A stretch of 64,000 nt of DNA from Xanthomonas bonasiae. Lineage in GTDB: Bacteria > Pseudomonadota > Gammaproteobacteria > Xanthomonadales > Xanthomonadaceae. Shown piece after piece: positions 2,140 through 16,435 of the stretch (the first letter of the stretch is position 1; every line of letters starts with the position of its first letter). A program made the translations under genes and the position numbers. The DNA is taken from contig NZ_JAFIWB010000007.1 in assembly GCF_017163705.1 (NCBI RefSeq), positions 1 to 64,000 of the forward strand. Direction: 5' to 3'. The notes below the pieces were generated by a model that ran no database searches, was not told the origin of the DNA, and was given only the letters and a program-made list of their open reading frames with translations.

Positions 2140-2683
2140 GCTTTTGACTTAACGGGTTCCCTTCCGAAGCGGCGGCCATGCCGGGGAAAAACCCCGAAGG
2201 GGCGGCGCACAAGGATGTGCGCCGTTCGCGGCAGGGGCAGGATGCCCCTTCCGCGAATCCCCGGTATGGACGCGGACCCGGAGCGCGCAGCGCGGAGGGC
2301 GCTAGGCAGGGCGCGCTTTCTTTTGGTTACTTTTCTTTGCGCGAGCAAAGAAAAGTGACTCGCCGCAAGGCGAAAGCCTTTGCCTTTGCCTTGGTTCTGG
2401 CATTGAGATTTTGAAGCTTTTGAAGCTTGAAGCTTGAAGCTTGAAGCAAGAGCTTCCGCTGGCGCGGGTCACTTTTCTTTGCTTGTGCAAAGAAAAGTAA
2501 CCAAAAGAAAGCACACCCCGCAACGCGCCCTCCGCGCTGCGCGCTCCGGGTCCGCAGCCCCGACGGGCATTTTTCGATGGCACATCCATGTGCCAACGAA
2601 AAACGTCGCGCATCCTGCGCGCCGCCCTTCGGGTATTCGCCCGCCGGGTCTGCCGCGCTGAGGGGACCCGGTAGATCAAAAGC
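2140..2683 (-). mobile_element. MITE-like palindromic element, copy A
   Basis: A 544-bp non-coding element bounded by imperfect terminal inverted repeats of about 22 bp: GCTTTTGACTTAACGGG at 2140 and its mirror ending at 2683, which reads GCTTTTGATCTACCGGG on the minus strand. Inside are two inverted half-modules. Each holds a long hairpin around GGTTACTTTTCTTTGC and GCAAAGAAAAGT (about 2320-2358 and 2468-2508). A variable GAAGCTT-rich centre lies between them. A second copy lies in opposite orientation at 15887-16435. The outer right half of the two copies differs at only a handful of bases. No transposase is encoded, so any movement would need a helper in trans. Short frames through the hairpins are shadows. 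Confidence 0.85.
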
Positions 2684-2730
2684 AAAGCAAAAGCAACAGC
2701 AGAAGCGGAAGCGGAAGCAGAAACAACAGC
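2684..2730. repeat. AGCAAA/GGAAGC triplet-type tract outside copy A
   Basis: A short purine-rich tract of AGCAAA, AGCAAC and GGAAGC units continues outward from the right terminal repeat of element copy A. It resembles the reverse complement of the tract at 15823-15886 beside copy B. Confidence 0.8.
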
Positions 2731-2818
2731 CGAGCTGATAGGCACGATCGATGGAACGGCCAGTGACTGCCGCGCATGCAACGCGGAGCTATCGCGCTCG
2801 CTCAGTTACGGAGTACTC

Positions 2819-3036
2819 CGAATCGGATCAGTTTCCGGCTCGTTCAACACCGCCGACAGCCCCAGTCCCAGCATCCCACCGCGTCTGCACCGGATCTCGC
2901 TGCTGTCACCACACAACCGCGCGCTCGCGTGGCACGGATGGCCCTGCTGTTCGAATTGTTCGCGGATCGTCGTCTTGAAAGCCGTTTCGTTCTCGGCCGA
3001 CCAACTGCTGGCCTTGCTCTCGATGCCGTCGCGTCG
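2819..3036 (-). pseudogene. decayed 3'-end fragment of liuB (methylcrotonyl-CoA carboxylase beta)
   Basis: Read on the minus strand, this stretch encodes about 72 residues matching the C terminus of the intact liuB product (14140-15750). Shared segments are RRDGIE.K, ETAFKT.IREQFE, QGHP..ASARL and LGLGLSA.LN. By eye the nucleotide match is roughly 75-80%, with a small indel around the DDGIIDP region. There is no start, no upstream part of the gene and no proper C terminus, so it is a relic rather than a gene. As at the intact locus, the fragment is followed by a triplet tract and then the MITE-like element, here as an inverted arrangement 12 kb away. Confidence 0.85.
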
Positions 3037-3078
3037 CGTACGGCATGGTGGCTCGACCACTGCCGTATGGCAGACAGC

Positions 3079-3110
3079 AAAAAACCCCGCCGCGCAGTCG
3101 CGCGACGGGG
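3079..3110 (-). terminator. rho-independent terminator of ohr
   Basis: On the minus strand a GC stem (CCCCGTCGCGCG pairing with GCGCGGCGGGG) around a three-base loop is followed by six T residues. It begins about 20 bases after the ohr stop. Confidence 0.85.
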
Positions 3111-3131
3111 TCTTCGGACCAGCCGCATCGA

Positions 3132-3563
3132 TCAGTCGAGGACGACCAGATTCACGTCGATGTTGCCGCGGGTCGCGTTGGAGTACGGGCAGACCTGGTG
3201 CGCCTTGTCGACCAGCGCCTGCAGCTCCTCGCGCGGCATGCCCGGCACCGCGATGCGCAGTTCCACCGCGATGCCGAAGCCGCCCGGGATCTGGCCGATG
3301 CCGACGCTGCCTTCGATGCTGACCTCGCCCGGCAGCTTCTGCTTGTCCTGCGCCGCCACCGCCTTCATCGCGCCGATGAAGCAGGCCGAATAGCCGGCCG
3401 CGAACAGCTGCTCCGGATTGGTGCCGTCGCCGCCGGCGCCGCCCAGCTCGCGCGGGGTGGACAGCTTCACGTCCAGCGCCTTGTCGGAAGACACGGCGCG
3501 GCCTTCGCGGCCGCCGGTCGCGGTGGCGTGGGCGGTGTAGAGAATCTTTTCGGGTGAGGCCAT
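3132..3563 (-). CDS. ohr: organic hydroperoxide resistance protein
   Basis: A 143-residue OsmC/Ohr-family thiol peroxidase that reduces organic and fatty-acid hydroperoxides, usually with lipoyl-protein electron donors. The two catalytic cysteines are at Cys61 (in [11 protein letters not shown]) and Cys125 (in [11 protein letters not shown]), with conserved Glu51 in [11 protein letters not shown]. Length and motif spacing are normal for Ohr. It lies downstream of ohrR on the same strand with a 111-base gap holding an AT-rich imperfect palindrome, so it may have its own OhrR-controlled promoter. A strong terminator follows. Confidence 0.95.
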
Positions 3564-14008: not shown

Positions 14009-14022
14009 TGCGATGCGCTTCG

Positions 14023-14104
14023 TGTAGGGGCGGCTCTACGTGGCCTCGGGCCATCAGCCGCGACACGTTCCCGGCAAAGCGTCGCGGCTGAAGCCGCTCC
14101 TGCA
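14023..14104. repeat. REP-like palindromes, one degenerate
   Basis: A broken copy (GTAGGGGCGGCTCTACG then CAGCCGCGAC) and a good minus-oriented copy at 14081-14104 occupy the gap between liuA and liuB. Confidence 0.75.
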
Positions 14105-14139
14105 CGGACTCCCTTTTCCTCTTTTTCGATGGCCCTGCC

Positions 14140-15750
14140 ATGAGCGTGATCCAGACCCAGTTGCAACCCGGCAGCGACGCCTTCGCCGCCAACGTCGCGG
14201 CGCTGCGCGCGGTGGTCGACGACCTGCAGCAGACCCAGGCGCGCATCGCCCAGGGTGGCAGCGACGCGGCGCGCGCCAAGCACCAGGCGCGCGGCAAGCT
14301 GCTGGCGCGCGAGCGCATCGACGCGCTGCTCGACCCGGGCAGCGCGTTCCTGGAAATCGCCCCGCTGGCCGCGTTGGGCCTGTACGCCGACGAGGTCCCG
14401 TGCGCTGGCGTGGTCGCCGGCATCGGCCGCGTATCCGGGGTGGAATGCGTGATCGTCGCCAACGACGCCACGGTCAAGGGCGGCACCTACTACCCGATGA
14501 CGGTGAAGAAGCATCTGCGCGCGCAGGAGATCGCGCAGCAGAACCGGCTGCCGTGCATCTACCTGGTCGATTCCGGCGGCGCGTTCCTGCCGCTGCAGGA
14601 CGAGGTGTTCCCCGACCGCGACCATTTCGGCCGGATCTTCTACAACCAGGCCAACCTGTCGGCGCAGGGCATCGCCCAGATCGCCTGCGTGATGGGCTCG
14701 TGCACCGCCGGCGGCGCCTACGTGCCGGCGATGAGCGACGAGACGGTGATCGTGCGCGAGCAGGGCACCATCTTCCTCGGCGGCCCGCCGCTGGTGAAGG
14801 CGGCCACCGGCGAGGAGGTCAGCGCCGAGGATCTGGGCGGCGCCGACGTGCACACGCGCATCTCCGGTGTGGCCGACCATTTCGCCGACAACGACCTGCA
14901 GGCGCTGGCGCGGGTGCGCGCGATCGTGGCCCAGCTCAACTGGCGCAAGCCCGAGCCGGCGCTGGCGTTGCGCGCGCCGGAGCCGCCGCTGTATCCGGCC
15001 GAGGAACTGTACGGGGTGATCCCGGCCGACCCGCGCAAGCCGTTCGACGTGCGCGAGGTGATCGCGCGGGTGGTCGACGGTTCGCGCCTGGACGAGTTCA
15101 AGGCGCGCTACGGCACCACCCTGGTCACCGGCTTCGCGCACCTGCACGGCTATCCGGTCGGCATCGTCGCCAACAACGGCATCCTGTTCTCCGAGTCGGC
15201 ATTGAAAGGCGCGCACTTCATCGAACTGTGCGCGCAGCGCGGCATCCCGCTGGTGTTCCTGCAGAACATCACCGGCTTCATGGTCGGGCGCAAGTACGAA
15301 CACGGCGGCATCGCCAAGGACGGGGCCAAGCTGGTGATGGCGGTGGCCTGCGCAAAGGTGCCCAAGTTCACGGTGGTGATCGGCGGTTCGTTCGGCGCCG
15401 GCAACTACGGCATGTGCGGCCGCGCGTATTCGCCGAATTTCCTGTGGATGTGGCCGAACGCGCGGATCGGGGTGATGGGCGGCGAACAGGCGGCGAGCGT
15501 GCTGGCGACGGTGCGCCGCGACGGCATCGAGGCCAAGGGCGGCGCCTGGTCGGTGGAGGACGAGACGGCGTTCAAGACGCCGATCCGCGAGCAGTTCGAA
15601 CGCCAGGGCCATCCGTACTACGCGAGTGCGCGGTTGTGGGACGACGGGATCATCGATCCGGCGCAGACGCGGCGGGTGCTGGGGCTGGGACTGTCGGCGG
15701 CGTTGAATGCGCCGGCGGAACCGACCCGGTTCGGGGTGTTCCGGATGTGA
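14140..15750 (+). CDS. liuB: 3-methylcrotonyl-CoA carboxylase, beta (carboxyltransferase) subunit
   Basis: A 536-residue biotin-dependent carboxyltransferase that moves CO2 from carboxybiotin to 3-methylcrotonyl-CoA. Landmarks are [19 protein letters not shown] and [15 protein letters not shown] near the N terminus, [18 protein letters not shown], the first oxyanion region in [27 protein letters not shown], and [19 protein letters not shown] in the second half. Length is normal. A degraded copy of its last 70-odd codons lies at 2819-3036 on the minus strand. Downstream there is no hydratase gene; a MITE-like element occupies the gap before liuD. Confidence 0.94.
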
Positions 15751-15822
15751 GCGGGCGCGACCGCCCTGCTTTGCACGCATCGCGGTCGGCGGTAGTCCCA
15801 CCGACCATGGCCGACAGCTCCG

Positions 15823-15886
15823 CTATTGCTGTTGCCTCTGCCTCTGCCTCTGCCGTTGCTTCTGCTGTTGCTGTCGCCTTTGCTTT
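15823..15886. repeat. triplet-type tract (TGCCTC, TGCTGT units) outside copy B
   Basis: A tract of TGCCTC, TGCCGT and TGCTGT units leads into the left terminal repeat of the element at 15887. Read on the minus strand it resembles the tract at 2684-2730. Confidence 0.8.
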
Positions 15887-16435
15887 GCTTTTGATCTACG
15901 GGGTCCCCTCAGCGCGGCAGACCCAGCGGGCGAATACCCGAAGGGCGGCGCGCAGGATGCGCGACGTTTTTCGTTGGCACATGGATGTGCCATCGAAAAA
16001 TGCCCGTTGGGGCTGCGGACCCGGAGCGCGCAGCGCGGAGGGCGCGCTGCGGGGTGTGCTTTCTTTTGGTTACTTTTCTTTGCACAAGCAAAGAAAAGTG
16101 ACCCGCGCCAGCGGAAGCTCTTGCTCTTGCTTCAAAGCTTCAAAGCTTCAAAACACCAATGCCAGAGCCAAGATAACGGCAACCGCAAAGGCAAAAAGCT
16201 TTCGCCTTGCGGCGAGTCACTTTTCTTTGCTCGCGCAAAGAAAAGTAACCAAAAGAAAGCGCGCCCTGCCGAGCGCCCTCCGCGCTGCGCGCTCCGGGTC
16301 CGCGTCCATACCGGGGATTCGCGGAAGGGGCATCCTGCCCCTGCCGCGAACGGCGCACATCCTTGTGCGCCGCCCCTTCGGGGTTTTTCCCCGGCATGGC
16401 CGCCGCTTCGGAAGGGAACCCGGTAAGTCAAAAGC
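15887..16435 (+). mobile_element. MITE-like palindromic element, copy B
   Basis: A 549-bp element inversely oriented to copy A, with terminal inverted repeats starting GCTTTTGATCTACGGGG at 15887 and ending at 16435. It has the same two hairpin half-modules (about 16063-16101 and 16217-16256) and a variable GAAGCTT-type centre. It lies between liuB and liuD, within what should be one transcription unit, and its hairpins could affect transcription or mRNA decay. No protein is credible here. Confidence 0.85.

Follow-up and report, generated by a model that had tools for sequence, protein, structure and literature searches.

Two near-identical elements in opposite orientation enclose a 13-kb block in the genome of Xanthomonas bonasiae, and the question raised by this locus is what kind of repeat they are and whether they allow the block to flip. 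They lie in the window analysed here, the 64,000 nucleotides at positions 1 to 64,000 of contig NZ_JAFIWB010000007.1 (assembly GCF_017163705.1). An earlier note on this DNA had described them as a pair resembling miniature inverted-repeat transposable elements (MITEs), with terminal inverted repeats and a double-hairpin design. We lean, at slightly better than an even chance, towards reading the repeats as dispersed RNA modules that are predicted to bind RsmA where they are transcribed. What is shown by computation is a body of predicted hairpins that co-vary and that have, on one strand, A(N)GGA loops, together with a core of three covarying tracts. Judging by their sequences, the copies stay alike by exchange, by constraint or by both.

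Unit architecture and covariation

The elements occupy positions 2138-2685 and 15885-16437, are each ~550 bp long and share 94% identity in opposite orientation (BLAST, 560 query bases). An inverted-repeat search returned the arms 2091-2381/16194-16484 (291 nt, 95%) and 2445-2734/15836-16125 (290 nt, 93%), which flank a GAAGCTT-rich centre that differs between the left and right copies. Within each element are inverted halves of its own (124 nt, 81-83% identity) around this variable centre, and these are the source of the double-hairpin appearance. The description of two near-identical inverted elements with similar outer parts and a differing centre is therefore borne out. Each element consists of two ~235-bp units arranged head to head, and the outer ends of these facing units are what had been taken for terminal inverted repeats. 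In this genome (G000; 89 contigs, 5.38 Mb) the element matches 14 places, namely six pairs (two of them in the window), six solo units of ~250 bp and two copies cut by contig ends; the claim of terminal inverted repeats fails on the solo units, 6 of the 14 places, which have no inverted ends.

The unit is laid out as a GCTNTN array, the motif CGGGTYCCC, the body, the core and a further array. In the 120 nt on the 5' side of 45 units with both flanks available, GCTNTN occurs 262 times, against 17 for the reverse and 45.8 in shuffled sequence; in the 120 nt on the 3' side of the same units the counts are 101 and 90 for the reverse, a balance that may reflect paired units turning round there. The sense strand of the unit folds into an outer stem, a small hairpin, hairpin H1, an inner stem enclosing hairpin H2, hairpin H3 and the core. 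Folded as RNA, the left element gave z = -24.5, with 0/100 shuffles folding as well, and the core hairpin pattern (≤3 mismatches) had 8 matches in the window, where 100 shuffles gave a mean of 0.00. The units and their parts in the window are as follows, R1 being a model of the unit body.

2138-2685, no single strand: left element, a head-to-head pair of unit A (sense +) and unit B (sense -) (repeat search, BLAST, comparison with relatives)
2150-2385, + strand: unit A, left (fold z -7.0; R1 match 2186-2261 +)
2203-2224, + strand: hairpin H1 of left unit A, CACA-AGGA-TGTG loop of the A(N)GGA type (hairpin pattern scan of the window)
2233-2249, + strand: hairpin H2 of left unit A, GCA-GGA-TGC loop (same scan)
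2317-2357, + strand: putative triplex core, left unit A, with third strand 2317-2324, linker GGTTAC 2325-2330, pyrimidine arm 2331-2338 and purine arm 2347-2354 (sequence and three-strand covariation across the family)
2440-2676, - strand: unit B, left (fold z -7.3; R1 match 2566-2641 -; Rfam RsmW, sub-threshold, 25.4 bits)
2578-2595, - strand: hairpin H2 of left unit B, sense loop TGGA (hairpin pattern scan)
2607-2621, - strand: hairpin H1 of left unit B, sense loop GGA (hairpin pattern scan)
2473-2510, - strand: putative triplex core, left unit B (sequence, core pattern, family covariation)
1979-2140, + strand: degenerate GCTNTN array on the outer (5') side of left unit A (sequence, repeat search; polarity from the 45 units)
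15885-16437, no single strand: right paired element, unit B (sense +) and unit A (sense -), between liuB (14140-15750 +) and liuD (16535-18544 +)
15929-16004, + strand: unit B body, right, with H1 15949-15963 and H2 15975-15992 (R1 match; hairpin scan; RsmW, sub-threshold, 26.0 bits)
16060-16097, + strand: putative triplex core, right unit B, with third strand 16060-16067 and arms 16074-16081 and 16090-16097 (sequence, core pattern, family covariation)
16221-16258, - strand: putative triplex core, right unit A (sequence, core pattern)
16314-16389, - strand: unit A body, right, with H2 16326-16342 and H1 16351-16372 (R1 match; hairpin scan)
16438-16502, - strand: degenerate array outside right unit A, GCAACT on the + strand (sequence, repeat search)

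From 192 loci we obtained 213 unit strings and, from these, 102 units below 90% identity. The 102 units contain 196 perfect hairpins with a stem of at least 6, of which 137 have GGA at the loop, 59 another loop and none TCC; the GGA hairpins have 47 distinct stem arms. When units were selected by structure only, with loops ignored, 55 of the 102 non-redundant units showed the arrangement [hairpin P][X-hairpin Q-X'], and GGA was present in 51/55 P loops and 54/55 Q loops and TCC in none. Several A(N)GGA motifs in apical loops, the mark of an RsmA/CsrA-binding RNA, were thus found. The GGAs of the two loops are 22-29 nt apart, and the loop mostly takes the form CA(N)GGA(Y)G, in which N is optional and variable. 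The structural rule, which demands the inner stem, replaced a looser one (58 units; H1, 52 GGA and 6 none; H2, 35 GGA, 21 none and 2 TCC) that had picked H3 for H2 in several units. The absence of TCC loops from both the perfect-hairpin and the structure-only counts indicates that only one of the two strands is read. Of the 9 strict [3 bp]CA(N)GGA(Y)G[3 bp] hairpins in the window, 8 are inside the two elements, all on the sense strand. The sole such hairpin beyond them is at 47256 on the minus strand.

The stems are maintained by compensatory change: in alignment A2 (40 rows), 98.0% of cells pair, as against 78.1% when shuffled, and there are 160 double-change cells, as against 8-21 in slid controls. 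A second alignment, A1, was chosen by its loops, so that the invariance of its loops is no evidence and only its stems count; there the outer stem has more G-T than A-C (41 vs 8), as does the core (78 vs 0), which suggests that it is the sense strand that folds.

The core reads TTTCTTTT-GGTTAC-TTTTCTTT-loop-AAAGAAAA and combines a mirror repeat with a hairpin. In a second family of the order the core letters differ, and the third strands TTTCTCTT, TCTCTTTT, TTTCTCTTT, TTCTCTTTT and TTTCCTCTT each follow their hairpin. Among 128 cores sought next to GGA hairpin pairs, by hairpin only, 107 are perfect mirrors; counted by distinct combination the figure is 21/34, against a mean of 5.6 and a maximum of 13 when shuffled, and 0/10,000 shuffles reach 21. 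The cores use 10 distinct tracts, with 8/90 off-diagonal matches. One core of the 128 lacks a pyrimidine third strand and 20 more fail the strict rule. Read from their sequences, the three tracts co-vary as a parallel T.A-T / C+.G-C pyrimidine triple helix on one strand would require, and the core is a probable triple helix. The GGTTAC linker can alternatively pair with GTNAC, so that the extended hairpin and the triplex would be mutually exclusive. The core is unusual among natural sequences in that covariation extends to each of the three strands of the presumed triple helix, and it makes a countable question of whether bacterial triplex motifs are selected. BoxC/TMECO, as described in PMC4666352, is likewise a dispersed intergenic repeat capable of an intrastrand triplex, but its triplex is G/C-rich and of the purine motif, whereas the core here is A/T-rich, of the pyrimidine motif and joined to a hairpin body; the core does not match the BoxC/TMECO consensus CCCTCNCCC..GGGNGAGGG as given in that source.

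Some units carry inserts. At four loci (L020, L064, L170, L172) a ~90-bp palindromic insert (GAGCCGG..GCGAAGCACTGCTTCGCC..) is present at the H2 loop and, by eye, looks like a separate small element targeting that loop. At six others (L005, L007, L010, L093, L110, L128) a ~28-nt hairpin insert of the TGACCAGCCTTCGGCTGTGGTAAAGCG type lies directly 5' of the triplex third strand.

Likeness to RsmA-binding RNAs

A unit transcribed in the sense direction would yield an RNA that presents two predicted RsmA/CsrA sites at the 22-29 nt interval of its loops, a spacing that would suit one RsmA dimer. Longer consensus forms of the CsrA/RsmA site are CANGGANG and RUACARGGAUGU, and a dimer may bridge two sites. 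The primary site is A(N)GGA, as stated in PMC4066749. This genome has one csrA match. A small RNA that binds and sequesters RsmA, RsmU, has been shown for Xanthomonas and derives from the comEA 3' UTR; in the same report no CsrB or RsmX/Y/Z homologue is reported for Xanthomonas (PMC7694677). At the position reported for RsmU, after comEA, we found a cluster of GGA hairpins in 9/9 genomes searched, this one included, and its hairpins GGCAGGATGCC, GACAGGATGTC and GCGCAGGACGCGC recur letter for letter in the units. The RsmU position and the unit are alike in having more than one [stem]CA(N)GGA(Y)G[stem] hairpin, but RsmU is a single locus with a terminator, whereas the unit is dispersed and has an outer stem, the putative triplex core and arrays. 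That RsmU is itself a unit was rejected: the RsmU locus here has an R1 score of only 17.5 bits, and in another genome (G105) the four listed R1 matches are far from comEA.

An Rfam search of the window gave 0 matches at the gathering score. Below that score, no bacterial family scores higher than RsmW on unit B, where its sense-strand matches reach 25.4 bits in the left element and 26.0 bits in the right; RsmW scores 17.9 and 17.2 bits on unit A and 25.5 bits at the RsmU locus. The units share repeated A(N)GGA loops with the RsmW, RsmX/Y/Z and CsrB small RNAs, and RsmW aligns to their sense strand; they differ in falling below the gathering score, in having many copies per genome and in having no promoter or terminator shown.

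The unit would act as a dispersed RsmA-binding module, either a decoy or a local regulator of the mRNA that contains it, and its core, as a triplex or a hairpin, would form a stable cap at the 3' end. Between liuB and liuD, the first unit that transcription would meet is in sense orientation. More tentatively, and with some doubt on our part, many Xanthomonadales may possess a dispersed library of up to tens of such RNA modules, each with two hairpins at the spacing of an RsmA dimer and a switchable pyrimidine triplex cap, which would jointly set free RsmA; in this proposal the cap would switch with the extended hairpin, since the GGTTAC linker can pair or loop and not both. If so, the level of free RsmA would be set from many transcripts together, in a distributed version of RsmY/Z. 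In Xanthomonas, for which PMC7694677 reports RsmU but no CsrB or RsmX/Y/Z homologue, the repeat would supply many candidate sites for setting free RsmA.

Competing explanations

Several results weigh against reading the units as RsmA-binding modules. The cluster after comEA is taken for RsmU by its position, and an RsmU mutated from GGA to AAU retained RsmA binding in vitro, in a complex of smaller size, according to PMC7694677, so that GGA alone may not be decisive. Every RsmW score lies below the gathering score of 52, and an unrelated human microRNA family outscores RsmW, at 31-32 bits on AT hairpins, which makes the RsmW match weak support. In alignment A2, G-U accounts for only 4 of 823 standard pairs, and 3 one-side changes stand against 160 two-side changes; this scarcity is unfavourable because selection at the RNA level usually leaves more wobble. 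In H2 of alignment A1, A-C exceeds G-T (11 vs 3), at least part of which comes, by eye, from rows with an extra column. Co-directional solo units show no orientation bias (11 sense, 10 antisense), and a second body type without GGA loops, found in Stenotrophomonas, Pseudoxanthomonas and Xanthomonas records (L088, L089, L091, L096, L101), has the same core and arrays. The near absence of G-U pairs, the unbiased orientation and the GGA-less bodies all favour the main rival, a structured repeat acting at the DNA level, in which the palindromes and the mirror/inverted core would form a cruciform or an H-DNA-like triplex in single-stranded or supercoiled DNA and be the target of a protein of recombination, replication or transposition, the GGA loops would be read in DNA, and hairpin-templated correction would keep the stems perfect. 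The signs of exchange between copies favour it too, as do the link between palindromic triplex repeats (BoxC/TMECO) and instability given in PMC4666352 and the wide recurrence of the core: alone (≤2 mismatches) it occurs in 14/369 sampled class genomes, this one included, with 0 matches to the reversed-pattern control in every genome listed, and it accompanies other bodies in other Gammaproteobacteria, among the matches listed Mannheimia, Glaesserella, Bowmanella and others. Against this rival stand the missing TCC loops, with one strand only read, and the G-T excess of the A1 outer stem and core, pointing to sense-strand folding; moreover, the loop matches a known RNA-protein site, optional N included, and the RsmU locus has the same hairpins. 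We regard action at the DNA level as possible and on balance doubtful.

A classical MITE pair, moved by a transposase through terminal inverted repeats and able to invert the 13-kb block by homologous recombination, seems improbable to us. It would account for the inverted ends, the many copies, their presence or absence between species, the signs of exchange, the swapped halves of the left element in one relative (G004) and a solo unit turned round in another (site A of G010). It agrees poorly with solo units that lack inverted ends, with empty sites that show no target duplication where examined (the arrays blur the junctions), with a left copy that carries flanking liuB DNA and with a block that is inverted in 0/15 genomes. 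The sole insert between halves that was read for open reading frames (ORFs) has an IS110-type transposase, in one species. From the MITE-like label of the earlier note there survive the conserved outer boundaries, the many copies in relatives and the signs of copy exchange, but not a MITE with terminal inverted repeats. MITEs, ERIC and RU repeats resemble the element in being intergenic, structured, non-coding and multi-copy, and differ in that the element here has solo units without terminal inverted repeats, had no target duplication seen at its array-blurred junctions and keeps stable positions across the genus. Very unlikely, in our estimate, is an ordinary intergenic hairpin array that attenuates transcription or stabilises mRNA between liuB and liuD and in similar gaps. 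Strong folding of the units and of the left element is in its favour, as are the constant presence of a copy in the liuB-liuD gap of relatives and the setting of the 30 solo GGA-type sites, which lie between co-directional genes in 21 cases, convergent genes in 7 and divergent genes in only 2 (genes called by a codon-composition rule, not by a gene finder). Such an array leaves the GGA loops and the third-strand covariation unexplained, and no U-tract follows the core in either direction in the window sequence, for which reason a classical terminator was rejected as well.

Distribution, age and origin of the copies

Copies were found in 32/60 genomes (own included), among them 19/19 same-genus relatives with 4-40 matches each. 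Body model R1 matches in 104/198 family genomes and 41/54 genera, and in 52/200 order genomes including a second family, f12 (own genome counted throughout); 13 f12 genomes picked for having hits have 6-60 matches. R1 was built from loop-selected sequences, so that its hits lean towards GGA bodies, and over 40 genomes the best 24 candidates per genome were scored. Four loci in Mannheimia and Glaesserella (L105, L109, L123, L158) have the same core with other, AT-rich bodies, and at L109 the core ends shortly upstream of a start codon of what looks, by eye, like sucC. No description of the repeat was found in open-access PMC, judged by title, start of abstract and counts of the top-ranked records, and the core letters were in none of these.

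The liuB-liuD gap contains a copy in 19/19 same-genus relatives, and in a genome of another genus (G020) it contains an intact unit and a decayed inverted unit; in G035, of another genus, the gap is 288 bp and without a unit. The copy does lie between the two genes, but since it does so in all 19 same-genus relatives and in G020 it is not a recent disruption of the liuB-liuD transcription unit, which the earlier note described as split. At the site of the left copy, the sirtuin-ohr gap, a whole or partial copy is present in 8/15 covered relatives and absent in 7/15, a count that leaves out four relatives without both flanks (L061, L062, L069, L076); in relatives without the left copy the matched gene ends are ~170 bp apart. 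Three solo sites traced in 11 relatives have the unit, whole or in part, in 7/11, 9/11 and 10/11; at site A the right flank did not align in G001. The copies have thus long occupied their sites, though some were gained or lost. At the empty alleles of four intervals (sirtuin-ohr and solo sites A, B and C) no target duplication was seen, the arrays blurring the junctions and making them unalignable there.

A single alignment of 981 columns, in which 2091-3037 matches 16484-15513 reversed, extends beyond the left element into a feature missed by the earlier note:

2809-3037, - strand: decayed copy, in inverted orientation, of the liuB 3' end, duplicated with the left element (alignment, relatives)

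The same liuB 3' piece also adjoins the left element at L064, L070, L072, L075 and L077. Because the left copy includes this piece, the most likely source of the left element is a segmental duplication of the liuB-liuD site, in inverted orientation, in an ancestor of this clade; the pair would then not stem from two independent insertions. Within a genome, the left and right liuB pieces share 77-83% identity (4 genomes), whereas the unit halves share 95.2-99.2% (A, 6 genomes) and 93.5-98.9% (B, 5 genomes). For the left A half, the closest sequence is its own right copy in 4/6 genomes (exceptions G004 and G010); for the left B half this is so in only 2/5 (G012 and G010). The drifted liuB pieces beside conserved halves, together with this nearest-copy pattern, would fit best with some gene conversion plus constraint or exchange with yet other copies. 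The swapped halves in G004 are a local flip or conversion.

The proposed inversion of the block was rejected: gene order is collinear in 15/15 same-genus genomes with both flanks covered, and the block is inverted in none of them. Near-identical inverted repeats need not imply a flipping block. At L066 (2549-3811, oriented) the ORF of the IS110-type transposase, named by eye, lies beside REP-like sequence between two unit halves; IS110 as the mobiliser was rejected, being seen once, between halves, in one species.

The contig start has a 60-nt inverted repeat (97%; window 1-60 and 329-388) that could be an artefact of assembling the contig end. REP palindromes of the GTAG type (PMC3733652; TGTAGGAGCGGCTTCAGCCGCGAC) occur in the window at 4273-4358, 7290-7368 and 14080-14104; they are 20-40 bp long, are of other sequence and form a separate family. 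They are also found inside some pairs, and at L005, L007 and L010 a REP pair lies within the linker that joins the two halves of an element.

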